A stretch of DNA of 42,338 nucleotides from the NCBI GenBank assembly GCA_937920635.1, contig CAKZUE010000064.1:1-42338 (forward strand), given 5' to 3'. Positions 3,863 to 29,503 of the stretch are shown here, piece by piece (position 1 is the stretch's first letter; each line of letters starts with the position of its first letter). This DNA comes from an uncultured Bryobacteraceae bacterium (GTDB taxonomy: Bacteria > Acidobacteriota > Terriglobia > Bryobacterales > Bryobacteraceae). The notes beneath the pieces are model-generated. The model did not search any database and was not told the origin of the DNA. It was given only the letters and a program-made list of their open reading frames with translations. The position numbers were made by a program, and so were the translations under genes.

Positions 3863-4360
3863 TCAACTTTCCAGCACGAACCGCAGCGGCAGGTGCGCCG
3901 AGCGCCGGATGCCGATCCGCGGCGTCACGACAATCGACTCGCGCCGCGCCGCGGGCGCAGCGAGGATCCGCAGCGGGCTGTGCAACAAATCCCAGCCGTT
4001 CTGTTCCAGCGTGATCCCCAGCGCCCGGGTCACTTTTCCCGGTCCATCCCCGCATCCTTCCACCGCCCGGATCAGCACGCATCCCGGGATCCCTTCGGGC
4101 TCCGCCACCACATTCAGGCAGCAGTGCATCCCATAGGCGAGGAACACATAGGCATGCCCGGGACGCCCGAACAGCACCTCCGTGCGCCCCGTGCGCCCGC
4201 TCCAGGCGTGCGCCGCCTCGTCGCCTTCCGGCAGATACGCCTCCACCTCCAGGATCCGCCCTCCCCTGCCCCGGAACTCGAGCCGCTGCCCCAGAAGCCC
4301 GCGCGCCACTTCCACCGTGGGCCGGGCGTAAAAGCTGCGGGGCAGGACTCGGGCGGCCAT
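3863..4360 (-). CDS. 3-methyladenine DNA glycosylase (AAG/MPG family)
   Basis: The 165-residue protein belongs to the alkyladenine DNA glycosylase family, which excises alkylated purines in base-excision repair. Visible family segments are LPRSFY near the N-terminus, ILEVEAYLPEGDEAAHA (about 36-52, containing the catalytic Glu region), GHAYVFLAYGMHCCLNVV (68-85) and GDGPGKVTRALGI (about 103-115). It is somewhat shorter than the usual 180-200 residues, mainly between the GPGK motif and the C-terminus, but no frameshift is evident. It lies upstream of aroC on the same strand, with the aroC palindrome between them. Confidence 0.9.
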   Translation of the reverse strand: MAARVLPRSFYARPTVEVARGLLGQRLEFRGRGGRILEVEAYLPEGDEAAHAWSGRTGRTEVLFGRPGHAYVFLAYGMHCCLNVVAEPEGIPGCVLIRAVEGCGDGPGKVTRALGITLEQNGWDLLHSPLRILAAPAARRESIVVTPRIGIRRSAHLPLRFVLES

Positions 4361-4393
4361 CTCGCGTTACGCTAGGTGAGAGTATCACGAGCC

Positions 4394-4945
4394 ATGCGCC
4401 TGTTTGTGGGCATCGATCTGCCGTACGAAGTGCGGCGCAACCTGGAACTGCTGCTTCAGATGCTGCGGCCGAAAGCCGGCATCCAGTGGAGCCCGCCGTC
4501 CAACCTGCATATCACGACGAAATTCATCGGCGAGTGGCCGGAAGAGGATCTCGATATCCTGAAACAGGCTCTCGCGGAAATTCCTCCGCCGGGAGAATTC
4601 CGCGTCGATATTCAGGGTTTGGGATGGTTTCCCAACGAGCGAAATCCGCGTGTTTTCTGGGCCGGCATCCGCGGCGGAGAGAGCTTGCCGCTGCTGGCGC
4701 GGGCCACGGAGGACGCCTGTGAAGCGTTGGGAATCGCCCGCGAAGACCGCCCCTTCAGTCCTCACCTCACGCTGGCCCGCATCCGCCGCCCCGTGGATCT
4801 GGCGGCGCTGCGCAAGGCGCTGGAGTCGCTCCCTTCGGACCATTTCGGCCGCTTTACCGCCACCCAATTCCACCTGTATGAGAGCAAATTGCGCCCCGGC
4901 GGCAGCATTTATACGAAATTAGCCAGCTTTCCTTTGGCAAAATGA
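4394..4945 (+). CDS. thpR: RNA 2',3'-cyclic phosphodiesterase (LigT/ThpR)
   Basis: The 183-residue protein is a 2H-phosphoesterase that opens 2',3'-cyclic phosphates on RNA ends. The two catalytic HxTx motifs are HITT (about residue 39) and HLTL (about 124), and the N-terminus MRLFVGIDLP is typical of the family. The ATG at 4394 is preferred over an in-frame GTG at 4376 because family homology begins at MRLF. Its stop overlaps the plsY start by 4 bases (ATGA), suggesting translational coupling in a thpR-plsY-gpsA operon. It diverges from the glycosylase gene across 33 bases. Confidence 0.93.
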   Translation: MRLFVGIDLPYEVRRNLELLLQMLRPKAGIQWSPPSNLHITTKFIGEWPEEDLDILKQALAEIPPPGEFRVDIQGLGWFPNERNPRVFWAGIRGGESLPLLARATEDACEALGIAREDRPFSPHLTLARIRRPVDLAALRKALESLPSDHFGRFTATQFHLYESKLRPGGSIYTKLASFPLAK

Positions 4946-5547
4946 CGGAAAAACTGCTTGTCATGCTGGCCGCCTATCTCATCGGCGGCATCCCGTTCGG
5001 ATATCTGATCGTCAAGCTGCGCACCGGCCGCGACGTGCGGCAGATGGGCAGCGGCAACATCGGCGCCACCAACGTGCTGCGCACCACCGGGCGCGGCTGG
5101 GGCGTACTGACGCTGCTGCTGGACATCGCCAAGGGCTGGGTGGCGTGCGCCATCATGCAGCGCCTGGCCGGCGGCTCGCCTGAGTGGATCGCCGCCGCCG
5201 GCGTGGCCGTCGTGCTGGGCCACGCCTTTCCGGTCTGGCTGCGGTTCCAGGGCGGCAAGGCGGTGGCCAGCTTTGTCGGCGTGGCGCTACATCTGGCGCC
5301 CTGGGCGCTGGCTGCCGTGGCAGCCGTGTTCGTCATCACCGTCGCCGCCACGCGCTACATCTCGCTCGGCTCGATCCTCGGCGCGGGGCTGTTTCCGTTC
5401 GCTGTCTGGATCCTCTATCATCCCGGCCCGGGCGTGATGAGCGCCGTCGCCTTCTGCGGCGCGTTCATCATCTGGCGCCACCGCTCCAACATCCAGCGCC
5501 TGCGCGCGGGTACCGAGAACGTCTTCCGCTTCGGAGGCAGGAAGTGA
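4942..5547 (+). CDS. plsY: Glycerol-3-phosphate acyltransferase PlsY
   Basis: The 201-residue integral membrane enzyme transfers the acyl group from acyl-phosphate to glycerol-3-phosphate to start phospholipid synthesis. Family motifs are GSGNIGATNVLR (about 37-48), GHAFPVWLRFQGGK (about 93-106) and WRHRSNIQRL near the C-terminus; five or so hydrophobic segments are visible. Its substrate is made by PlsX, encoded 35 kb away in the same window. It overlaps thpR and gpsA by 4 bases each, and gpsA makes its co-substrate glycerol-3-phosphate, so the operon has a clear logic. Confidence 0.97.
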   Translation: MTEKLLVMLAAYLIGGIPFGYLIVKLRTGRDVRQMGSGNIGATNVLRTTGRGWGVLTLLLDIAKGWVACAIMQRLAGGSPEWIAAAGVAVVLGHAFPVWLRFQGGKAVASFVGVALHLAPWALAAVAAVFVITVAATRYISLGSILGAGLFPFAVWILYHPGPGVMSAVAFCGAFIIWRHRSNIQRLRAGTENVFRFGGRK

Positions 5548-10221: not shown

Positions 10222-10292
10222 TCCGCGCTCCCGCGCGATCTGATTCGACCCAGGGCCGCATGCCCGCGCCGCAAGGGCGCGGCGGACGAGCC

Positions 10293-10391
10293 ATGCTCCT
10301 GTTCCGCTTCGACGACCCCGACGGCGCCCTCCGCCGCCTCACAGAAGGCGGCATCCGCGTCCTCGAGCGCAGCGAACTCGACGGCTTCTGA
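10293..10391 (+). pseudogene. Remnant of an ACT-domain protein, C-terminal piece
   Basis: A 32-residue frame reads FRFDDPDGALRRLTEGGIRVLERSEL, closely matching the final beta-alpha-beta segment of small tandem-ACT-domain proteins (pattern FRVDDPDxAIxxLxxxGIxVL). No upstream sequence completes the fold: the frame runs back into the shadow of the TonB receptor gene. It is best read as a leftover of a deleted gene, probably once an amino-acid-binding regulator. It could by chance be a functional micropeptide; no good ribosome site was seen. Confidence 0.4.
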
Positions 10392-10511
10392 CACTCCGTT
10401 TACCTGCCTGCCCGGCGCCCGTGGAGAACTCCGGCAAGCCGCCCTGTACCGGCGCGGTGAGATCCGGATCTCGGCCAACCGCCGCGGGCGCCGTCAGGCG
10501 CAAGTTGCGCG

Positions 10512-12155
10512 CTACCCGGACTTTGGCCCCGCCGCTGCGGCCAGCAGACGTTGCGTGCTCGGTGGCGCATTCTCCCGGCGGCGGATGAACTCCTGGTCCA
10601 GAGCCGTCCACCGCGCTTCCATGCGGCTGACAAGATCCGGGTGCACTCCCGCCAGGTTGACCTGCTCGCTGCGGTCGCGGGCCATGTCGTACAGCTCCCA
10701 ATCCCGGAAGACATCACCGAACCCTGTGCCGGTGGAAACCAGCTTCCAGTCGCCCATGCGCAGCGCCCGGTGTCCGTAGTGGCTGAAATACAGGAAATCA
10801 TGCACCGCGGCGATATCCTTCTCGAATGCAGGAACCAGGCTGCGCCCGTCGAAGCCCGGGGCGCCTTCAACCGGAGCAGCCTGAATCCTCGCGCCAGCCA
10901 GTTCCAGAACCGTGGGCACGATGTCCACGAAGTGGCATGGCGTGTGGCGCAGGGCGTTCGGCTGGGCAAGCCCGTTAGGCCAATGCACGATCAGCGGAGA
11001 TGCGATGCCTCCCTCATGCACCCAGGACTTGTAGAGCCGGAACGGAGCGTTGGAGGCTGCGGCCCAACCCGGCCCCAGGCAGAGATGCGAGCGCGCTGAT
11101 CCGGGCGGGGCGGCTGGATCATGGCCGTCGCCCCGGATGATCTGTTCGGAACTGGCGCCGTTGTCGGACAAGAACAGGACCACGGTGTCGCGCGCGGCGC
11201 CCATCTGCTCGATCTGCTTCAGCACGCGCCCGATCTCGATGTCCATGCGCGTGGTCATGGCGGCGTGAATGGCCATCTTGGTCCGCTGAAAGTCCTTCTG
11301 CTCGGCCGTCAGCGAGGCCCAGGGAACCGCGCGTGTCACCTCGCCAGGGCCGATTTTGGCGAACAGCTCCTGGTCGGGAGTGTTCCACCGCGTCCACATG
11401 TTCCGCTCCAGAGGGGCCAGGCCGCAGTGGATCAGTCCCGCGGCGCGCATCCGCTCCCAGCGGCGCTGCCGGATCACATCCCAGCCTTCGGCGAATTTGT
11501 CCTTGTAATGGGCGATATCATCGGCCAGTGCGTGCAATGGAAAATGCGGAGCGTGAAAAGCCAGATACAGAAAGAAAGGCTTGCCCGCGTGATTTTGCGC
11601 GTGATCCCTCAGAAAACGGATCGAATAATCCGCGATGGCGATGGTGCCGTAATATCCGTCACCGGGTTTGGGAAGAGGCTCGCCGTCCAACTGATGCCGG
11701 TTCTGCGTGAAATAGCGGAACTCGTCCAGTTGCGTGTAGGAGCGGTCAAAACCCGCGCCACCGGCGCCGGGAATCAATTTGAGATGCCACTTGCCGGAAT
11801 GGTACGAGCGGTATCCCAGAGGCCGCAGGTATTCGGGCAGAAACCACGTGTAGTCCGGGATGCGTCCCGGGGTCATCACGTCCGAGGCGGTCTGCTGGGC
11901 ATAGTAGCCGGTAAGCAGGGCGCTGCGCGAAGGACCGCAGCGCGCCGTCGAATATGCTTGCGTGAAACGGATGCCGGACGCCGCCAGACGGTCGATGTTG
12001 GGCGTCTCAATCTCCCCGCCGTAGCAGCCGGCGTCGGAAAAGCCCATGTCGTCGGCCAGAATCACCACGACGTTCGGCTTCCTGGCTTGAGCTGCTGCCC
12101 GCCAGGCGCCGGCAGCCGCGCCGATGCTGCCCAGAAACTCCCTGCGTGTTGTCAT
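10512..12155 (-). CDS. Tat-exported sulfatase (arylsulfatase family)
   Basis: The 547-residue hydrolase starts at the ATG at 12155, preceded by gggagag. Residues 2-22 form a twin-arginine signal (TTRREFLGSIGAAAG), so it is exported folded. The alkaline-phosphatase-like domain opens with NVVVILADDMG (Asp35 and Asp36 metal ligands), and the formylglycine motif is CGPSR at 73-77, where Cys73 must be oxidised by a formylglycine-generating enzyme (none in this window). FLSDNG later supplies further ligands. Substrate is unknown: sulfated polysaccharides are most likely. A longer upstream frame (14 codons) lacks homology. The first repeat element lies about 75 bases upstream. Confidence 0.93.
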   Translation of the reverse strand: MTTRREFLGSIGAAAGAWRAAAQARKPNVVVILADDMGFSDAGCYGGEIETPNIDRLAASGIRFTQAYSTARCGPSRSALLTGYYAQQTASDVMTPGRIPDYTWFLPEYLRPLGYRSYHSGKWHLKLIPGAGGAGFDRSYTQLDEFRYFTQNRHQLDGEPLPKPGDGYYGTIAIADYSIRFLRDHAQNHAGKPFFLYLAFHAPHFPLHALADDIAHYKDKFAEGWDVIRQRRWERMRAAGLIHCGLAPLERNMWTRWNTPDQELFAKIGPGEVTRAVPWASLTAEQKDFQRTKMAIHAAMTTRMDIEIGRVLKQIEQMGAARDTVVLFLSDNGASSEQIIRGDGHDPAAPPGSARSHLCLGPGWAAASNAPFRLYKSWVHEGGIASPLIVHWPNGLAQPNALRHTPCHFVDIVPTVLELAGARIQAAPVEGAPGFDGRSLVPAFEKDIAAVHDFLYFSHYGHRALRMGDWKLVSTGTGFGDVFRDWELYDMARDRSEQVNLAGVHPDLVSRMEARWTALDQEFIRRRENAPPSTQRLLAAAAGPKSG

Positions 12156-12228
12156 GGCCCGTCTCTCCCTGTAGTCAGTCTTCGAAGCGCTCCACAAGCC
12201 GCGCGCCCTATTCTACGCTCCCCCGCCC

Positions 12229-12260
12229 AAAAAGGGGACAGGAACACAATTCCCCTTTTT
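12229..12260 (+). repeat. 32-bp inverted-arm repeat element, copy 1
   Basis: Arms AAAAAGGGGA and TCCCCTTTTT (10 bp, perfect) flank the 12-base loop CAGGAACACAAT. An identical copy is at 25106-25137 and an inverted copy with one mismatch at 35238-35269. The GGGGACAGG core recalls REP-type elements mobilised by RAYT transposases in other bacteria. As RNA it would fold with a T-tract and could end transcription from either side. Here it lies upstream of the sulfatase gene. Confidence 0.8.
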
Positions 12261-12271
12261 CCCGTGCCCGT

Positions 12272-12750
12272 AAAAACCCGGGACAGGCCCGCCTGGCGCC
12301 AATTTCATCTTTCGAAGAGGGGGGACGAAGAGAGGAACCGCCGCCGGTCATGCTGCCGAGCTTTGGTCTGAGGCGTGAAAATGCTGGGCTCGGCCCTTGG
12401 CTGGTCCATTCGGCGCGCAAAAGCCGCGTGAAGGCGCTTCTCTGCCGCGCATGCAGGCCGCTTTCATCCGCCTTCTATGCCGCGAACGGAGTGCGCGAAG
12501 CGCCCGAGAGTGAGCGGTCGGCCGCGCGCGGGGGAAAAACCGGGGACAGGCCCGCCTGGCACCAATTTGATCTTTCAAGAACCGGGGCAGCGGCCGGCCA
12601 TGAATCCCGGGCTCGGCTGGAGGCATGAAAATCCAGAGGGTGCCCCCGGCGCTGGTCTGCGCTACGCACGTTGGCCGGTGTCATCCGCCTTTTGTGCCGC
12701 GCACGGAGGGCGCGAAGCGCCCAAGAGTGAGCGGTCCCCGCGCGCGGGGG
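12272..12750 (+). repeat. Two imperfect tandem units (about 263 and 216 bp)
   Basis: Unit 1 runs 12272-12534 and unit 2 12535-12750. Both start AAAAACC..GGGACAGG, share GCCCGCCTGGC and CCAATTT within the first 40 bases, then GGCATGAAAAT- or GGCGTGAAAAT-like and TCATCCGCCTT segments, and end with GCGCGAAGCGCCC...GAGTGAGCGGTC and a CGCGCGGGGG run. Unit 2 lacks about 50 bases of the middle. Neither unit encodes a believable protein. They look like tandem copies of a non-coding repeat unit composed of a GGGGACAGG-type part and a REP-like hairpin part. Confidence 0.7.
12691..12742 (+). repeat. REP-like GC hairpin repeat, copy A
   Basis: The block begins TTTGTGCCGCGC, contains the perfect stem GGGCGC/GCGCCC (12708-12722, loop GAA) and ends with GAGTGAGCGGTCCCCGCG. 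A second copy at about 39970-40019 keeps the flanks but has the stem GGCCGC/GCGGCC, so both sides of the stem changed together. This supports selection for the fold and a dispersed REP family. Confidence 0.7.
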
Positions 12751-12790
12751 CAGCGCTGCGGCGGTTGTTGCGGTGGTGTTTGGACCGCTT

Positions 12791-12820
12791 GGCCGCGCCT
12801 GCGGCGCTCCCGCGCGGCTC
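12791..12820 (+). repeat. 30-bp GC-rich dispersed repeat, copy 1
   Basis: It starts GGCCGCGCCTG and ends TCCCGCGCGGCTC; an inverted copy at 29076-29105 matches 28 of 30 bases. CCGCGC and GCGCGG within it can pair, giving a hairpin. It is probably another REP-like family. Confidence 0.6.
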
Positions 12821-12995
12821 CACAGCCTCCGGCTCGCCTCGCTCGCGGCACTGAACATGGCTACACCCCGCTTCCGCCGCGCTTCCCCTTGCGGATTTCC
12901 CCCGGCGTCAGCCAGGGACTGCCCTTTGGGCGGGCTCGCGGCTGGATGAGGCGGTCGCCATCACGGCGTGGCTGCGGCACACCGGAACTTTTCGA

Positions 12996-13022
12996 GAGAG
13001 GGACAAAATTCCCCCTTTTCCC
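12996..13022 (+). repeat. Degenerate copy of the 32-bp element
   Basis: The sequence agagGGACAaaATTCCCCCTTTTC followed by CCGTC keeps the right arm and part of the GGGGACAG core of the 32-bp element and shares the CCCGT flank with copy 1, but it lost most of the loop and the left arm. Confidence 0.45.
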
Positions 13023-13591
13023 GTCGCAAGAAGAACGGACTCAGGCAAGTCCGCTGCCGCTATTCCCTGGTGAGTCACGCGCCGCAACCCGCTCCAGCCG
13101 CAGCGCCGATGATGGTTCAACCCGCGTCCCGCGCTGGCAGCCCCAGCGCCCTTGCCGTCCCCGCCGCCCCGCTCTCGCTTTCATGCCCTTTCAAACTCCC
13201 GGCAGGGACACACATCCGCTCTCCCCCTATTCCTCCGTCCGCGTCGCAAAGACCGCCGGCTCACCGGCACACAACACTTCCCCTGATTCGTCCCACCACG
13301 TCCTGCTTGCCCCCGAGCCTTCCGCATGTTAATAACTCGGATGATTCTTCACGAACTCGAAGAGCGTATGGCCGACCGGATGTCGTTGGCGTGGGCGAGA
13401 GAACCGAGCAAGCGACGCACCTTCCGAATCGTTTTATGCAACCACAGCCAAAGAGGTGAAGCGCACCCATGCCTATCTGAGATCCTGAAGTGCAATCTCG
13501 CCAGGCAATGCGCGGCGGGCTCTCTGCCAGTAGTTGGGGTCGGCGAGGAGCTTCATATCGGCGCTATTTGCTCCAAGGGGTGAACTTGCTG

Positions 13592-16500
13592 ATGCCTGCT
13601 CCGAACTTTCTTTCGAAGGGAATTGACTATCTGGGAGATCTCGGAGCGAAGCTCCGCGATCTACAGGGCTTCAAGACACTGATTCATGAGCTGATTCAGA
13701 ATGCCGACGATGCTGAGACGGCCTCGAGCATGACGTTTTCGGTTGGAGACGAGGATCTCATTGTCGACAACGACGGGGTCTTTAGTGAATGCCCTGACGT
13801 AACTACGGAGGAATGTGCATGGAAACATGATGGCATTCATAACTACCGCTGCGACTTTCACCGGTTCCGCCGGGTCGCATCGGGGGACAAGCGCGGCCAG
13901 GAAGGCACTACCGGCGCATTCGGCATCGGGTTCATCGCCGTGTACCAGATTACCGATGAGCCAGAATTGATCTCACGCGGACATCACTGGAAACTACACG
14001 AGAACCGGCCGGAAAGTGAACGCATCGAGGTGTGCCGTGGTTGTAGCAGTTGTCGCCAACCTGGCCTCCCGGGAACTCGATTCATTTTTCCCTGGGCAAA
14101 GAACCCCGAATCGGAAATGCGCCGCAGGCTTGGCGCGGAAGCCGTTCCGGCTGACAGCCCTGACCGTTTCCTTCGTGAACTGAGAGTCTCTTTGCCGACT
14201 GCGATGCTGTTCCTGAAGCGTCTGCGCGAAATTGCGGTATTCCGCAACGGGGAGCGCGTCCAACGGCTCGAACGCCTTGATGATGGGGATAGCTTGATTT
14301 TGAGCAGCGGGGAGCCAGAGGCTGACCAAGTCTGGCACATCATTAAAGGCGACTTTGCCGCGGCTGCAGACCAATTGCGCACCACCTTCCCGGGCAAGAT
14401 CGAAGAAAAAAGATCTCCCGCAGTCAAATTGGCGATTTCCGCTACCGAACCTGGGGCAGGACTACTCTGTGCCTGCCTCCCGACCGAACAGGATGTTGGC
14501 CTTCCCTTTCATCTCAACGCCGATTTCTATACCAGCAACGATCGCAAGCGGATTATTTTGGCAGAGGATTATCAGTCGAAGTGGAACCGCGAAGCGATCA
14601 AAGCTGCCGCGCTGGCCCTGGGTGATCACGTTGCCCGGCTCCTGAACTTAATCGGGCACAAGCCGTTCTGGGCGATGATGGAGCGGCTTCATGAGCTCGC
14701 ATCAGGGGTCGAACGGGGAAGGGCCGAACCTGTCTTGGCTGATTTCTGGAAATACAGTCTTCCGGTGCTTCAAACCAAACCAGTCATTTGGACCAGCACT
14801 GGAGAATGGGCAACCGTCGCTCAGTCATGCCTCCTGCTTCAGAAAGACGAGGCGGAAGCGCTTGAGGTTCTGGAGGCTCTCAACCTTCGGGTGACCCACG
14901 AGGATTTGCGGCCGCACCACAACCTCCTTCGCTCAAAGGCCGTGGGTGTTCCTGTGCTCGATGTGCATCGGATCAGTCAAGCGCTCTCGAATCTGGGTCT
15001 TGAAGGGCGCAAAACTCTGTCTGAGTTCCCTCCTGGCTTGAGGCCGGAAGCCCGGCGAAAGTTGCTCTGGAAGGAGTTAGGACTTCTGCTCGACCGCCGG
15101 TCCAGCGAGGGAGCCAAAGATGCAGACGCCCGGCAAATCTCCAAGATAGCCCTTGCCCCTGGCCGGGACGAGGCACTCTGGCCATGCGAGGAAATCTTCA
15201 GGGCGGATCCAGACACAATCTCATTGTTTGGAAAATTGGAACTCGGAATCCCTTTCCTCAAGGAGGAGCCGGACTTCCCACCCCAGCTCGCGCAATTGTG
15301 CCGCCCATTCGATGTCCAGGCCGCCATCGAGGTGCTCGATAGTGATGGCAAACTTAAACTGGAGGAGCTCTGGAGTCGCGGGCGGTTGCCACTTCCTGAC
15401 CTTTTCGCTTGGTTTGAAAACGAGCGCGAACAGATTCTTTCGAGGCGGAAGCTGAAGGAGGTCCTTGCCAGTCTTCCTTTGTTCCCGAGCGCGGGCAGGC
15501 TGCGGCCGCTGACAGATCTTCTGCTGCCCGGCAATTTCGACGATCCGCTGCATGTGGCCGACTTGGTCGACCTCTCTGTCGTTGGTGATCGGAAACGATT
15601 CCTCCGTGATCTTGGCGCGCGGGATCTCAATTTTCCGCAGTATGCGTGCTCCGTGTTGCCCAGGGTCCTTGCAGATCCCGCTCTTTCATCGGGAAAAAAG
15701 CGTGAGGCAGTGTTGCTGCTCGCAACGCGGCTCGGAGAGGTGAAGGAAGACGATTCGGTGCGGCACGCCCTTCGTAGCTGTGACCTTGTCGAGTGCCGGG
15801 ATCATCGGTTCCGCCAGGCTGCGTTGTGCTATTTCGATGAGCAAGCAGTCCAAGACTGCCTGGGGGATTCAGCATCCATTGCCGTCCTTCCCAAAATGCA
15901 TCGGGCTGCAGTCCGCGACTTGTACGAATGGCTGGGCGTCGCCTCTCAGCCCCGTCTGGAAGATATCGTCGCCAGAATCCGGAAACTGACTGAAAAACGC
16001 CCGTCGCCGGATGCGAAACAACAGGTTCAGCGCATTTTCGCTCACTTGGGTAAAAGCATCAAGGAAAACGAAGAAGATTGTTTTCCGCTTGAACCATTGA
16101 AAGGCATTCGCTGGCTGCCAGCGCGAGGCAAGGCTGACCGCTGGTATGCACCCGATGAACTTTATGCCGACTACCAGGCTCACCTGTTCGAATCCCAGGC
16201 TTTGATCCTGGATCTGCCGAATCCGGATCAACGTGCCAGCAAAGAATTACTGGTGTTCCTCGGCGTGCATCTCACACCGGAGCCTGCGCTCGTAGTCAAG
16301 CACCTGCTTCACCATGCCTCGCTTGGCGTAGCGGTCAACACAGGCGTGTACAACTTTCTCAACGATAAAGCCGGCGACCCGGCTCTTGCCCAACTTCGCG
16401 GGAAGGCTTGCCTGTGGCTTGGCGATGCGTACCGTAGCCCCGATGAGTTGTTCTGGGGAGAGCATCCCTTCGGCCGGTATCGGTGGCGCTTGGGCGATCA

Positions 16501-18163
16501 ACTGAAGGATTACGCCAGGTTTCTGAGGGCCATTGGTGTCCGGGAAGCTCCAGACAACCGTGACTTCCTTAACGTGATTCGACAAATCTCAGAGGAATTC
16601 GGCGCCGCCGGCAAACCATTGGACGGCGAGGCGCATTCGGTTCTGATGGCGTGCTGGCGGGGTCTCAGCCAGGCTCTTCTGAAAGGGACGATCTCCAGCA
16701 GCGAATTACAGGCGCTTCACGACGTCAGGTGCATCCCAGACAAAGCGGGGCTTCTAAATCGGCCAGACTGGATGTTCTTTGAGAACCGCGCAGGTCTCGC
16801 CGACAAGTTCGGGAGCTTCTTGTTGCGAAATGTCATTCCCCGTCCTCTGGACACCGGGGATGCGCTGGCCACTGCGGGCGTGCGCCCTCTGGGAACAGCA
16901 GTCGTCGTCGATCCCCTGAAGTGTCGCAACAGGATCAACGACCCGGAGCTGCGCGCGCATATTCTCTCGCGTCGGAATGAGATCGCTCGGGTACTGGATG
17001 CGCCGGGGGCAGAGGGTGGTACCAGCGGTGTCCTGGAAAGATTGACCAAAATTCAGTGCTGCGTCGCCGAGTCGATCAAGATTAGGTATCGGCTCAGTGC
17101 CTTCGACCAGGAGCGGAACAGTGACCCGGAACACGTGCCCGCTCTGTACCTGCCTGCGGAGAATTCCCTCGTGTATGCGCAACGCGATGACAGCAGGCCA
17201 TGGGCGTCCATCGCCCGGGAACTCGCAATCGCGCTCTACCCTGATGATGACCCTGGCCGCTTTGCCGCAGGCCTGAAAGAAGTCCTCGCTGCACAGACAC
17301 CGGAGGCTGCCGCCGCGGTCCTGGACGAGCTTGGTTACGCTCGGTTGGATACCCGCGTGCCTCCGCCGGTTGTGAGCGGGAACACGGTGGACGGCCTGGG
17401 AACCGGCACCACTCAAGAGACCGCTGGATCCCAGAAAGACGAGCCGCCCAGAGAGTCACCTAATTCGAAATCTTCCGAGGATGGCCATTCGCGTCCTTTC
17501 GGACCGGCTGCCCCAACAGAAGCGCCTTCCGAGAATCCGCCAAGTGACGACAGACCAACTGGCGGAGGGACTGCCAGCGGCGGCCTCGGTTCGAAGGGAA
17601 CCAGCCCCCCTGGCTCAGGCCAACCGGCCGACCCCACGCCAATTCGACCCCCTGGAGCTCGACGCCGCTTCATCTCCTACGTGGCCGTCGAACCTGACGA
17701 GAAGGAACCGGATCCCGACACAATCGATTCTCAGCAAAGAAAGGATCTGGAAGAGGCAGCCATCAGTTATATTCTCAGGGTTGAGCCACAACTAAGACGC
17801 ATGCCGGACAACAACCCCGGTTTCGACCTCTTCGAACCGGACGAGCAAGGTCAGCCGAGGCGCTGGGTCGAAGTGAAGGCAATGACGGAAGGTCTGTGGG
17901 ACAGGCCTGTCGGCATGACATACAAGCAGTTCAGCTGCGCCCAGCAACATGGGAAAGCCTTTTGGCTCTATGTGGTGGAGCTGGCCGGCACTCCGGAAGC
18001 ACGAATCCTTCGAATTCAGGATCCGGCAGGCAAGGCTCGGACATTCACGTTCGATGAAGGTTGGCGGGAGGTGGCGGAAATTGACGGCGGGAAGAACGAG
18101 CAACGGCACGAAGAGCAAGAATCCGCAAATCCGGATCAGTGGCAGCACGCCGATTCTGCTTGA
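13592..18163 (+). CDS. Sacsin/NO VEIN-like GHKL ATPase with C-terminal DUF3883 nuclease-like domain
   Basis: The 1523-residue protein opens with a Bergerat-fold ATPase of sacsin type: N-box HELIQNADDA (32-41; Glu33, Asn37), DLIVDNDGVF (55-64, Asp61-Gly62) and lid motif GAFGIGFIAVYQITD (108-122). Cysteine clusters (ECAWKHD..RCDFH at 74-90 and CRGCSSC soon after) may bind metal. A long mostly helical middle of about 1150 residues has no named domain. A low-complexity Gly/Pro/Ser linker precedes the last 145 residues, a DUF3883 (NOV_C) domain with a PD-(D/E)xK-like core: GFDL (Asp1412) and VEVK (Glu1427, Lys1429). The same end-to-end design occurs in plant NO VEIN. Function in bacteria is unproven; ATP-driven conformational control of a nuclease in anti-phage defence is an inference. 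The ATG at 13592 fits the aagggg site better than GTG at 13580. The gene stands alone and looks less GC-rich than its neighbours. Confidence 0.85.
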   Translation: MPAPNFLSKGIDYLGDLGAKLRDLQGFKTLIHELIQNADDAETASSMTFSVGDEDLIVDNDGVFSECPDVTTEECAWKHDGIHNYRCDFHRFRRVASGDKRGQEGTTGAFGIGFIAVYQITDEPELISRGHHWKLHENRPESERIEVCRGCSSCRQPGLPGTRFIFPWAKNPESEMRRRLGAEAVPADSPDRFLRELRVSLPTAMLFLKRLREIAVFRNGERVQRLERLDDGDSLILSSGEPEADQVWHIIKGDFAAAADQLRTTFPGKIEEKRSPAVKLAISATEPGAGLLCACLPTEQDVGLPFHLNADFYTSNDRKRIILAEDYQSKWNREAIKAAALALGDHVARLLNLIGHKPFWAMMERLHELASGVERGRAEPVLADFWKYSLPVLQTKPVIWTSTGEWATVAQSCLLLQKDEAEALEVLEALNLRVTHEDLRPHHNLLRSKAVGVPVLDVHRISQALSNLGLEGRKTLSEFPPGLRPEARRKLLWKELGLLLDRRSSEGAKDADARQISKIALAPGRDEALWPCEEIFRADPDTISLFGKLELGIPFLKEEPDFPPQLAQLCRPFDVQAAIEVLDSDGKLKLEELWSRGRLPLPDLFAWFENEREQILSRRKLKEVLASLPLFPSAGRLRPLTDLLLPGNFDDPLHVADLVDLSVVGDRKRFLRDLGARDLNFPQYACSVLPRVLADPALSSGKKREAVLLLATRLGEVKEDDSVRHALRSCDLVECRDHRFRQAALCYFDEQAVQDCLGDSASIAVLPKMHRAAVRDLYEWLGVASQPRLEDIVARIRKLTEKRPSPDAKQQVQRIFAHLGKSIKENEEDCFPLEPLKGIRWLPARGKADRWYAPDELYADYQAHLFESQALILDLPNPDQRASKELLVFLGVHLTPEPALVVKHLLHHASLGVAVNTGVYNFLNDKAGDPALAQLRGKACLWLGDAYRSPDELFWGEHPFGRYRWRLGDQLKDYARFLRAIGVREAPDNRDFLNVIRQISEEFGAAGKPLDGEAHSVLMACWRGLSQALLKGTISSSELQALHDVRCIPDKAGLLNRPDWMFFENRAGLADKFGSFLLRNVIPRPLDTGDALATAGVRPLGTAVVVDPLKCRNRINDPELRAHILSRRNEIARVLDAPGAEGGTSGVLERLTKIQCCVAESIKIRYRLSAFDQERNSDPEHVPALYLPAENSLVYAQRDDSRPWASIARELAIALYPDDDPGRFAAGLKEVLAAQTPEAAAAVLDELGYARLDTRVPPPVVSGNTVDGLGTGTTQETAGSQKDEPPRESPNSKSSEDGHSRPFGPAAPTEAPSENPPSDDRPTGGGTASGGLGSKGTSPPGSGQPADPTPIRPPGARRRFISYVAVEPDEKEPDPDTIDSQQRKDLEEAAISYILRVEPQLRRMPDNNPGFDLFEPDEQGQPRRWVEVKAMTEGLWDRPVGMTYKQFSCAQQHGKAFWLYVVELAGTPEARILRIQDPAGKARTFTFDEGWREVAEIDGGKNEQRHEEQESANPDQWQHADSA

Positions 18164-18171
18164 CCCTCCGA

Positions 18172-18193
18172 ACCTGACCGCCAGCAATCAGGT
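18172..18193 (+). terminator. Weak hairpin after the sacsin-like gene
   Basis: ACCTGA and TCAGGT pair across a 10-base loop starting 9 bases after the stop codon, followed by cagttta. The stem is only 6 bp and the T-run is short, so termination here is uncertain. Confidence 0.25.
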
Positions 18194-18367
18194 CAGTTTA
18201 GGACCCCTTTCACAGGCTTCCCAATCACTCCGGAAAATCAGCGAAGCGTCTCTGGCCGGGAGGTCCGCACGGGCGCTTTGCTCTCATCGATGGCGCACCG
18301 GCGGTCTCCGGCCCTCAGGTTTTACAATGCCGGCATCCTCCATGGCGCACGCCGCCCCGCGCGCCCC

Positions 18368-19321
18368 TTACTGCTTCGTGTTCCGCGGGCGTCCTCCGGG
18401 CGAGGTCCAGCCCGGCGGCGGGTTGTATTCCGGCCGCGTTTTCACTTCCGTGGCGGTCGGGAAATCCGGTGGAACCTTCTGCGTCACCCTGCCCGTCGCC
18501 GCCCACTCCGTGCCCCGCTGGAACGTGGCGATGAAGCCCACGCAGTTCATCGCCGCAATGTCATGGCCGAGCACGGTGTGAAACACCCGGCCCTTGCCGT
18601 ATTCAATCGCCATCAGGATCGGCTCCTCCCGGTCCGTCCCGCGGTTGGCGGGATCCGACCAGGCGATCGACAGCATCGTCATCTTTTCACCCGGTCCGCG
18701 CATGTGCGCATAAAGCTCATCGGCGGCGTGCATCCACTCCTCCGGCAGCCCTTCCGTCACTGGATGGTGGCGCACAAAATTACGGATCCTGAACGGCAGC
18801 CGCGCCCCGTGGCTGCCCGCCGGCCCCGGCGTTGTGTCGCTGATCACCTTGCCGTCCTTCACATACCAGTAAGGGCCATGCTTCTCCGTGCGCCCGCGCC
18901 AGCCGCCGACGCCGATCATGAGGTTGTACTCGCGCCAGTTCGGAAACGCGTTATCGGCCGCATGAACACTGACAAACCCGCCGCCATTGCGCACATAGGC
19001 TTCGAACGAAGCCTTCAGCTCATCCGGCCAGCGCTCGTCCGGCGCATCGTAGTTGCCCACCACAGCCTTGTATTTGCTCCATTCGGGGCGGAAATTCGAG
19101 AAATCTCCGCCCTTCGGAGGCGCGACCACCACAGTGACCTCGAACAGCCCCGTCTCCTCGAGCATCCGCTTCAGATACGGCGTCGTCTCTTCCCACGCAT
19201 GGTAGGGCCCGCCCTGCTCGCCGGTCAGAATCATCACCGGAATCTTCGGATCGGCCGCCTGCGCGGCAGGAATGACCAAATTTGCTATGGCTGCGAAAGA
19301 AAGAACCAGTAAGCGAAACAT
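18368..19321 (-). CDS. Exported ThuA-domain protein (trehalose-utilisation family)
   Basis: The 317-residue protein starts at the ATG at 19321, with AAGGAG seven bases upstream on the minus strand; a GTG six codons earlier is less likely because it would overlap that site. Residues 1-22 are a signal peptide ending AQA. The rest is a ThuA domain (type-1 glutamine-amidotransferase-like fold): ILTGEQGGPYHAWEETTPYLKRML near the start, GGGFVSVHAADNAF in the middle and YGKGRVFHTVLGHD near the end. ThuA proteins are linked with sugar metabolism but their reaction is unproven; Acidobacteriota and Planctomycetota have many exported copies. A TAGAAT at 19345-19350 (minus strand) is a plausible -10 box. 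Confidence 0.9.
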   Translation of the reverse strand: MFRLLVLSFAAIANLVIPAAQAADPKIPVMILTGEQGGPYHAWEETTPYLKRMLEETGLFEVTVVVAPPKGGDFSNFRPEWSKYKAVVGNYDAPDERWPDELKASFEAYVRNGGGFVSVHAADNAFPNWREYNLMIGVGGWRGRTEKHGPYWYVKDGKVISDTTPGPAGSHGARLPFRIRNFVRHHPVTEGLPEEWMHAADELYAHMRGPGEKMTMLSIAWSDPANRGTDREEPILMAIEYGKGRVFHTVLGHDIAAMNCVGFIATFQRGTEWAATGRVTQKVPPDFPTATEVKTRPEYNPPPGWTSPGGRPRNTKQ

Positions 19322-29075: not shown

Positions 29076-29105
29076 GAGCCGCGCGGGAGCGCCACAGGCG
29101 CGACC
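29076..29105 (-). repeat. 30-bp GC-rich dispersed repeat, copy 2 (inverted)
   Basis: Reverse complement matches 12791-12820 at 28 of 30 bases. It lies 22 bases upstream of the membrane glycosyltransferase start, where it could affect its leader. Confidence 0.6.
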
Positions 29106-29503
29106 AGGCGGCCCCACCAGCTCCCCAACAACCACCACCGCAGCCCTGACAAACAAGCCGGACGAACTCGCCGGAGCACACGCGGAATCCGCGCCAAGCT
29201 ACCACAGCCACCACCTCGCCGAACACGCCCAAGTCCAATTTTCCCGGCAGACTCACCAGGCCGTGCCTGTTTTCGCGCAAACCGCATGACCATCATTCAA
29301 ACCCCCGTATGGGCAGTCGGGCGCGGGACGTGGGATATTCTTACCCTCCCCTCCGTCTGATGCCTGCTATTGGCTGGACCGGAATGATGTTTCTCGTGTC
29401 GATGACCCGCCTCAGGATCGAGAACCCGCGTTCTGCCGCTACTGCTGCATTTGCGCCTCTTGTCCTGACCCTTTTCGTCCTCGCATCTGACCATCCAGAA
29501 GCT
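29106..29503. other. Gene-free spacer
   Basis: About 400 bases with no recognised gene, separating the glycan cluster from the DoxX gene. Short frames on both strands are low-complexity and lack ribosome sites. Confidence 0.4.

Follow-up and report, generated by a model that had tools for sequence, protein, structure and literature searches.

A solitary Tiamat-family gene joining a sacsin-type ATPase head to a nuclease-like tail in an uncultured Bryobacteraceae bacterium

The gene, its family and its locus

The stretch of DNA analysed here (hereafter the window) is a contig of 42,338 nucleotides (CAKZUE010000064.1; assembly GCA_937920635.1) from an uncultured Bryobacteraceae bacterium of the phylum Acidobacteriota. 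At positions 13592–18163 its forward strand carries the gene of a TmtA (Tiamat-family) protein, an open reading frame (ORF) that starts with ATG, encodes 1523 amino acids and contains no internal stop. Upstream of the ATG the frame remains open back to a GTG at 13490, and the ATG is the aligned start in five full-length relatives. Pfam recognizes a SACS domain (residues 28–129, E 9.6e-17) and a NOV_C (DUF3883) domain (residues 1387–1467, E 1.6e-7), both over their curated cut-offs, and nothing between them; NCBIfam adds a match to the sacsin N-terminal ATP-binding-like domain (53 bits, cut-off 50). An earlier note, made from the DNA letters alone, had likewise seen a single gene with a sacsin-type ATPase and a DUF3883/NOV_C tail, but its claim that no characterized bacterial system has this architecture has to be dropped. 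The PADLOC profile PDLC03969 (TmtA) spans residues 4–1508, which align with its positions 6–1516 of 1563 (1450.8 bits, E=0), and DUF3883 was already termed a novel restriction endonuclease (REase) domain in 2013 (PMC3710099). A new architecture is thus ruled out by the content of the PADLOC profile set. Nine TmtA models of 1063–1782 positions matched the protein, the eight others only in part. As judged from its sequence, the gene is a member of the already catalogued defence family Tiamat.

Both a genomic survey (PMC10482375) and a review (PMC12926258) place Tiamat among systems of unknown mechanism, and in Pseudomonas islands it is one of the most frequent systems of one defence hotspot (PMC12629846). 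In plant-associated metagenomes every Tiamat match lay on plant sequence (PMC12409356), which would fit the same models picking up plant NO VEIN. Literature searches whose coverage excluded most subscription journals turned up, among the titles listed, no paper on the Tiamat mechanism and none on TmtA with UvrD and a methylase. Tiamat is catalogued as a single-gene system, and the window gene has in common with it the single gene, the sacsin-type ATPase head and the NOV_C tail.

The composition of the gene sets it apart from its surroundings, as had been noticed before: its guanine-plus-cytosine (GC) content is 58.2% versus 64.4% for the window, and its GC content at third codon positions (GC3) is 62.9%, compared with 66.8–90.8% in eight other window genes (GC 61.7–68.8%). 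It lies in a stretch of 8.1 kb (10276–18369) that has no match between conserved flanks and also holds a sulfatase gene. The flanking genes match two congeners (G003 and G004) at 80–86% identity. In G004 the matches ending at window position 10230 and starting at 18369 are about 100 bp apart, and in G003 those at 10276 and 18369 are separated by about 2.07 kb of other sequence. TmtA was absent from all four congeners searched; three further genomes among 61 match, with the C-terminal part only. In a sample of 396 genomes of the phylum, PDLC03969 was found at E≤1e-30 in three, the own genome included, one of them (G265) again with the C-terminal part only. A vertically inherited housekeeping gene is ruled out by the absence from the four congeners and the variable site. 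Nor was a conserved housekeeping context encountered, as the locus varies between congeners and relatives stand in defence contexts (see below). The neighbours of TmtA are the sulfatase gene and a ThuA-type gene, both on the opposite strand, and no partner gene was recognized beside it, in agreement with the earlier note. The window contains no tRNA gene, and a Pfam scan of 20 of its other, larger ORFs found no integrase. By eye, a short stretch at positions 10276–10400 resembles the end of a gene whose neighbour at this site in G003 (L154) is ligase-like, and the site around it looks like a place of repeated replacement.

The 1.4 kb of repeats that had been described upstream of TmtA were overstated. 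Local direct repeats do exist there (81 nt at 83% and 53 nt at 85%), but about half of the region, approximately 12216–12881, is covered by a dispersed sequence of which the own genome holds 81 or more matching pieces, counting the query itself (scored at 40 of 270 candidate places). Because this family is genome-wide, that part does not mark the TmtA locus, and the reading of the upstream repeats as a mobile-element signature is ruled out. Another copy of this intergenic family lies at window positions 29076–29148; its copies are spread over many contigs and in part form short tandem groups.

Anatomy of the protein

The N-terminal 329 residues (13592–14578; this and all following parts of the gene are on the forward strand) form a sacsin/Hsp90-type GHKL ATPase module, delimited by the Pfam match together with AlphaFold and Foldseek. 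In an alignment of 36 rows, window included, conservation reaches 90% or more at E33, N37, D40, G108, F110, G111 and G113, so that the GHKL signature (E33, N37, G108, G111, G113) is kept and the complete motifs reported previously are confirmed. In sacsin-type GHKL proteins these positions provide the catalytic glutamate, the Mg-binding asparagine and the glycine-rich lid. The head departs in one detail from the classical Hsp90 D-x-G-x-G box, in that its conserved residue (again at least 90%) at this place is an asparagine, N60. An AlphaFold model of residues 1–1195 built from the 36 rows has a mean predicted local distance difference test (pLDDT) of 88.0, and its head resembles TRAP1/Hsp90 (Foldseek E 2e-9), the SR1 region of human sacsin (E 2e-7, target template-modelling score 0.63) and also MutL.

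About 1150 residues in the middle of the protein had been described as lacking any named domain. While this is true with respect to Pfam, residues 330–1082 (14579–16837) consist of seven repeats of about 105 residues, each a helix/strand-hairpin unit in this model of mean pLDDT 88. Eight segments of this length were cut around predicted strand pairs and their profiles compared with hhalign. Among the first seven, 11 of the 21 pairs reached at least 50% probability (up to 97%), whereas the eighth segment, r8, used as control, reached at most 4.3% with any of them. Four of the 21 pairs (r1-r3, r1-r5, r1-r6, r2-r6) scored no better than the control; a chain of links nevertheless joins all seven repeats at the profile level, even if some pairs go undetected. 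An alpha/beta region follows at residues 1083–1250 (16838–17341), as delimited by the AlphaFold model and by the blastp matches of six tail-less Chloroflexota relatives, which stop at residues 1248–1249. The poorly conserved, Pro/Gly/Ser-rich residues 1251–1349 (17342–17638) are taken as a linker.

The C-terminal NOV_C/DUF3883 module (residues 1350–1505; 17639–18106), assigned by Pfam, conservation and AlphaFold, is nuclease-like. Its key residues are E1398, D1412, E1427-x-K1429 and Q1446, and the D...ExK core proposed earlier is indeed present. All 61 aligned tails, that of the window among them, share G1410, D1412, E1427, K1429 and W1458, and at least 90% of them have E1398 and Q1446; the rows were picked for their similarity to the window tail in BLAST, and lost motifs, as in L011, are therefore under-counted. 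The AlphaFold model of the tail (58 rows, pLDDT 84.7, predicted template-modelling score (pTM) 0.77) has the order helix-strand-strand-helix-strand-strand, of which the helix-strand-strand-helix-strand part corresponds to the PD-(D/E)XK order. D1412 immediately precedes the first core strand, the second one contains E-x-K, and Q1446 is part of the helix after it. Together with the conserved residues, this element order upholds the view that the tail resembles restriction-type nucleases.

The two ends of the protein recur together elsewhere. Plant NO VEIN carries a sacsin-type ATPase and NOV_C at its opposite ends, as does the window protein, but is eukaryotic. Animal sacsin shares the ATPase domain, lizard sacsin 5v47 being matched by phmmer at E 2.7e-5, and a description of the protein makes no mention of NOV_C. 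DUF3883 is also described as the REase domain of restriction-like operons, where it is fused to an SNF2 helicase (PMC3710099), whereas the window tail is joined to a sacsin ATPase.

Relatives, apparent tail exchange and neighbouring genes

Relatives were collected with an alignment-based scan, which matched at least 589 stretches. Of the 228 relatives confirmed in genome contigs the 80 best were kept, together with 15 from viral contigs, and genes at their loci were predicted by simple ORF calling. This set retains near-copies and is no census. A scan of genome contigs with the single sequence gave 14 stretches and no relative, and phage records gave no match.

Core and tail of the window protein give conflicting trees. 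In a tree of the core (residues 1–1195, 36 rows) it groups with L097, a predicted viral contig, then with L017 (Caldilineaceae) and then with L018, a deltaproteobacterial metagenome-assembled genome, with values of 98–99 in the Shimodaira–Hasegawa-like approximate likelihood ratio test. L097 is 55% identical to the window protein in the core and 51% overall. The window tail, in contrast, is only 37% identical to that of L097 and 30% to that of L018, compared with 56–60% to the tails of L017, L002, L049 and L051; proteins of the shorter TmtA type have tails more like it than its nearest core relative does. The tail tree places the window within a set of 27 rows (25 of short or other types, two full-length; support 100/99) and pairs L097 with L018 elsewhere (support 98/92). 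Topologies that force the tails of the window, L097 and L018 together, or those of all 32 full-length rows, were rejected by the approximately unbiased (AU) test (p 0.0013 and 0.00029), as were a grouping of the window with L017 (p 0.010) and of L097 with L018 (p 5e-5) in the core; these tests were chosen after the identities had been seen, and bootstrapping of the tail tree had not converged. The simplest account of the conflict between the two trees would be an exchange of the tail near residues 1250–1350, and the nuclease tail appears to be a piece swapped among relatives, as expected of an exchangeable effector.

Other relatives differ at the same joint. Six Chloroflexota proteins (L027–L031 and L035; 1043–1109 codons) end just before the linker and have no nuclease tail; they also miss about 150 residues inside the repeat region, and no marker helicase (see below) was seen beside their genes. 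The blastp matches of L054, which has a divergent NOV_C tail, and of L020 end at residues 1258 and 1348. The tail of L075 (13838–14350) is HNH-like (HNH_2 E 6.7e-4, just under the cut-off), and that of L020 (14012–14629) matches it with 37% identity across some 64 residues (E 7e-7). On this weak support, L020 and L075 may carry HNH-like zinc-finger tails in place of NOV_C. Pfam found nothing significant in the L020 tail itself, so an HNH assignment from its own sequence was rejected and depends on the likeness to L075. The tail labels of L079 and of the cut rows L022, L041 and L048 were assigned by default.

Many relatives have a helicase gene next to TmtA. Three marker helicases were counted within 400 bp of 42 core-like and 55 distant loci, leaving out L001, L008, L009, L010, L016, L033 and L111 (copies, the window itself, a reverse-strand match); near-copies were kept, flanks cut by contig ends were scored as having none, and no random-gene control was included. 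A marker helicase was present at 19 of the 42 core-like loci, and none was seen at the other 23. A NERD-UvrD protein is encoded downstream in 15, always on the same strand and in 12 cases touching or overlapping TmtA; three loci have the UvrD-PDDEXK type (L023 only 25% identical to the marker), and one has an SNF2 helicase. The SNF2 helicase beside TmtA in L020 has no HEPN match. Among the distant loci 37 of 55 have a marker helicase, divided into UvrD-PDDEXK (18, of which eight on the same strand), HEPN-SNF2 (17, all on the same strand) and NERD-UvrD (two). In L095 (153–4664) and L109 (9848–14614) the sacsin-type head is even fused to an SF1 (AAA_11/AAA_12) helicase. Relatives on plasmids adjoin type I restriction genes (Deinococcus) and a UvrD helicase (Sphingomonas).

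In L097 and L018, two of the three nearest kin, TmtA is part of an operon with the order RadC, UvrD (PDDEXK), TmtA, N6/N4 methyltransferase (MTase) and ResIII. Related partners flank a short-type TmtA in L049, L053, L062, L064, L102 and L160, with identities of 60–82% for UvrD and 53–64% for the MTase (both versus L097) and 52–62% for ResIII (versus L018); in L160 contig ends truncate UvrD and ResIII. RadC lies upstream in L097, L018, L062 and L102. Since related partners surround long and short TmtA, both types occupy one slot. No description of a UvrD-TmtA-methylase-ResIII operon turned up in the literature searches, within the coverage stated above. No such partner was found beside the window gene, nor a close match to one in its own genome. 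It lacks the adjacent methylase and helicase that mark a restriction-modification operon, and in the 91 contigs of the genome, searched without a positive control, neither the MTase nor the NERD-UvrD helicase had a match; the UvrD-PDDEXK partner gave only partial matches of 31–37%. In L160, from a genome of the same order, an AlbA_2/Schlafen-type gene (3928–5466) lies between the short TmtA and the methylase.

Proposed function and alternatives

We read the gene as a solitary Tiamat-family protein that works as an ATP-gated, DNA-directed defence nuclease, with nuclease activity and phage defence both presumed, and put the probability of this reading at about 60%. The repeat array would sense or clamp infection-associated DNA or protein, and binding of ATP by paired heads would close them and change the shape of the molecule. 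This change might release or position the tail nuclease, which would cut DNA, either that of the phage or, as an abortive response, that of the host. DNA is the proposed substrate because relatives keep the company of helicases and methylases, which for the operon forms also suggests methylation-based self-recognition. The window copy, having no adjacent helicase or methylase, would recognize its target unaided. The single-gene, ATP-gated nuclease defence system proposed in the earlier note is borne out as far as the lone locus, the ATPase, the nuclease-like tail, the low GC content, the absence from the congeners and the defence contexts of the kin are concerned.

Several observations weigh against this reading. 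ATP hydrolysis is not certain, because the G1-box residue of the head is an asparagine (N60). The overall arrangement of the 1–1195 model is unsure at a pTM of 0.53. The predicted order of the tail, although that of a nuclease fold, found no match in the PDB at E≤0.001: the best hit (E 5.2e-3) is to Rep15, and the three top-ranked matches are Rep15 complexes and not nucleases. Among the 50 matches listed, 32 are PD-(D/E)XK enzymes such as YaeQ, SPARDA, PvuII and HincII. Moreover, the assignment to Tiamat is one by PADLOC profile, and the 8.1-kb stretch holds a sulfatase gene and no other recognized defence genes. Finally, the lone copy could be an inactive leftover, its nearest relative being in a multi-gene operon.

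This last point amounts to an alternative, according to which the gene was transferred out of a restriction-type operon without UvrD, methylase and ResIII and is now inactive or decaying. The operons of L097 and L018 and the missing partners in the own genome would fit such an origin, but the ORF runs unbroken through 1523 codons and keeps the conserved residues of both active sites, solitary copies are common (the 23 of 42 core-like loci above, where some flanks are cut and helicases of other kinds would escape), and Tiamat is catalogued as a single-gene system; we regard an orphan as decidedly unlikely. It seems less far-fetched, though still unlikely, that the protein is a sensor chaperone, whose head and repeats would recognize a phage protein and whose tail would cut host DNA or RNA so that the cell dies. 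The resemblance of the head to Hsp90/TRAP1 and sacsin speaks for this, as does the pairing of 17 of the 55 distant loci with a protein of the HEPN_Swt1-SNF2 type (domains taken from one representative), given that most HEPN domains have an RNase motif (PMC3710099); the DNA methylase and ResIII beside two of the nearest kin point instead to discrimination of self and non-self on DNA. A role outside defence, in cellular protein quality or in development and similar to that of eukaryotic sacsin or of NO VEIN in plants, is suggested by the end domains of NO VEIN and by the Tiamat matches on plant sequence (PMC12409356). Such a role is very improbable in view of the patchy occurrence (none of four congeners, three of 396 genomes of the phylum sample), the low GC content of the gene and the relatives on plasmids and beside restriction genes.

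Beyond the defence nuclease proposed above, we suggest tentatively, and with less than even confidence, that there is a modular helicase-nuclease defence machine whose exchangeable sensor-ATPase slot is TmtA. Long and short types would interchange between the same UvrD and methylase/ResIII genes, tails would move separately at the joint behind the repeat array, and the helicase might be supplied in trans (three kinds) or in cis (L095, L109). The window gene would then be a natural chimera of a long core and a short-type tail that works without a helicase. If this is true, the name Tiamat would cover a family of ATP-gated machines that take a plug-in nuclease, rather than a single system. What is added to the known family is its anatomy and the evidence for exchange of the nuclease tail and of the TmtA slot. 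This anatomy of head, repeats, apparently swapped tail and frequent helicase neighbour makes the Tiamat mechanism specifically testable, and it connects a defence family of bacteria with sacsin and with NO VEIN of plants.
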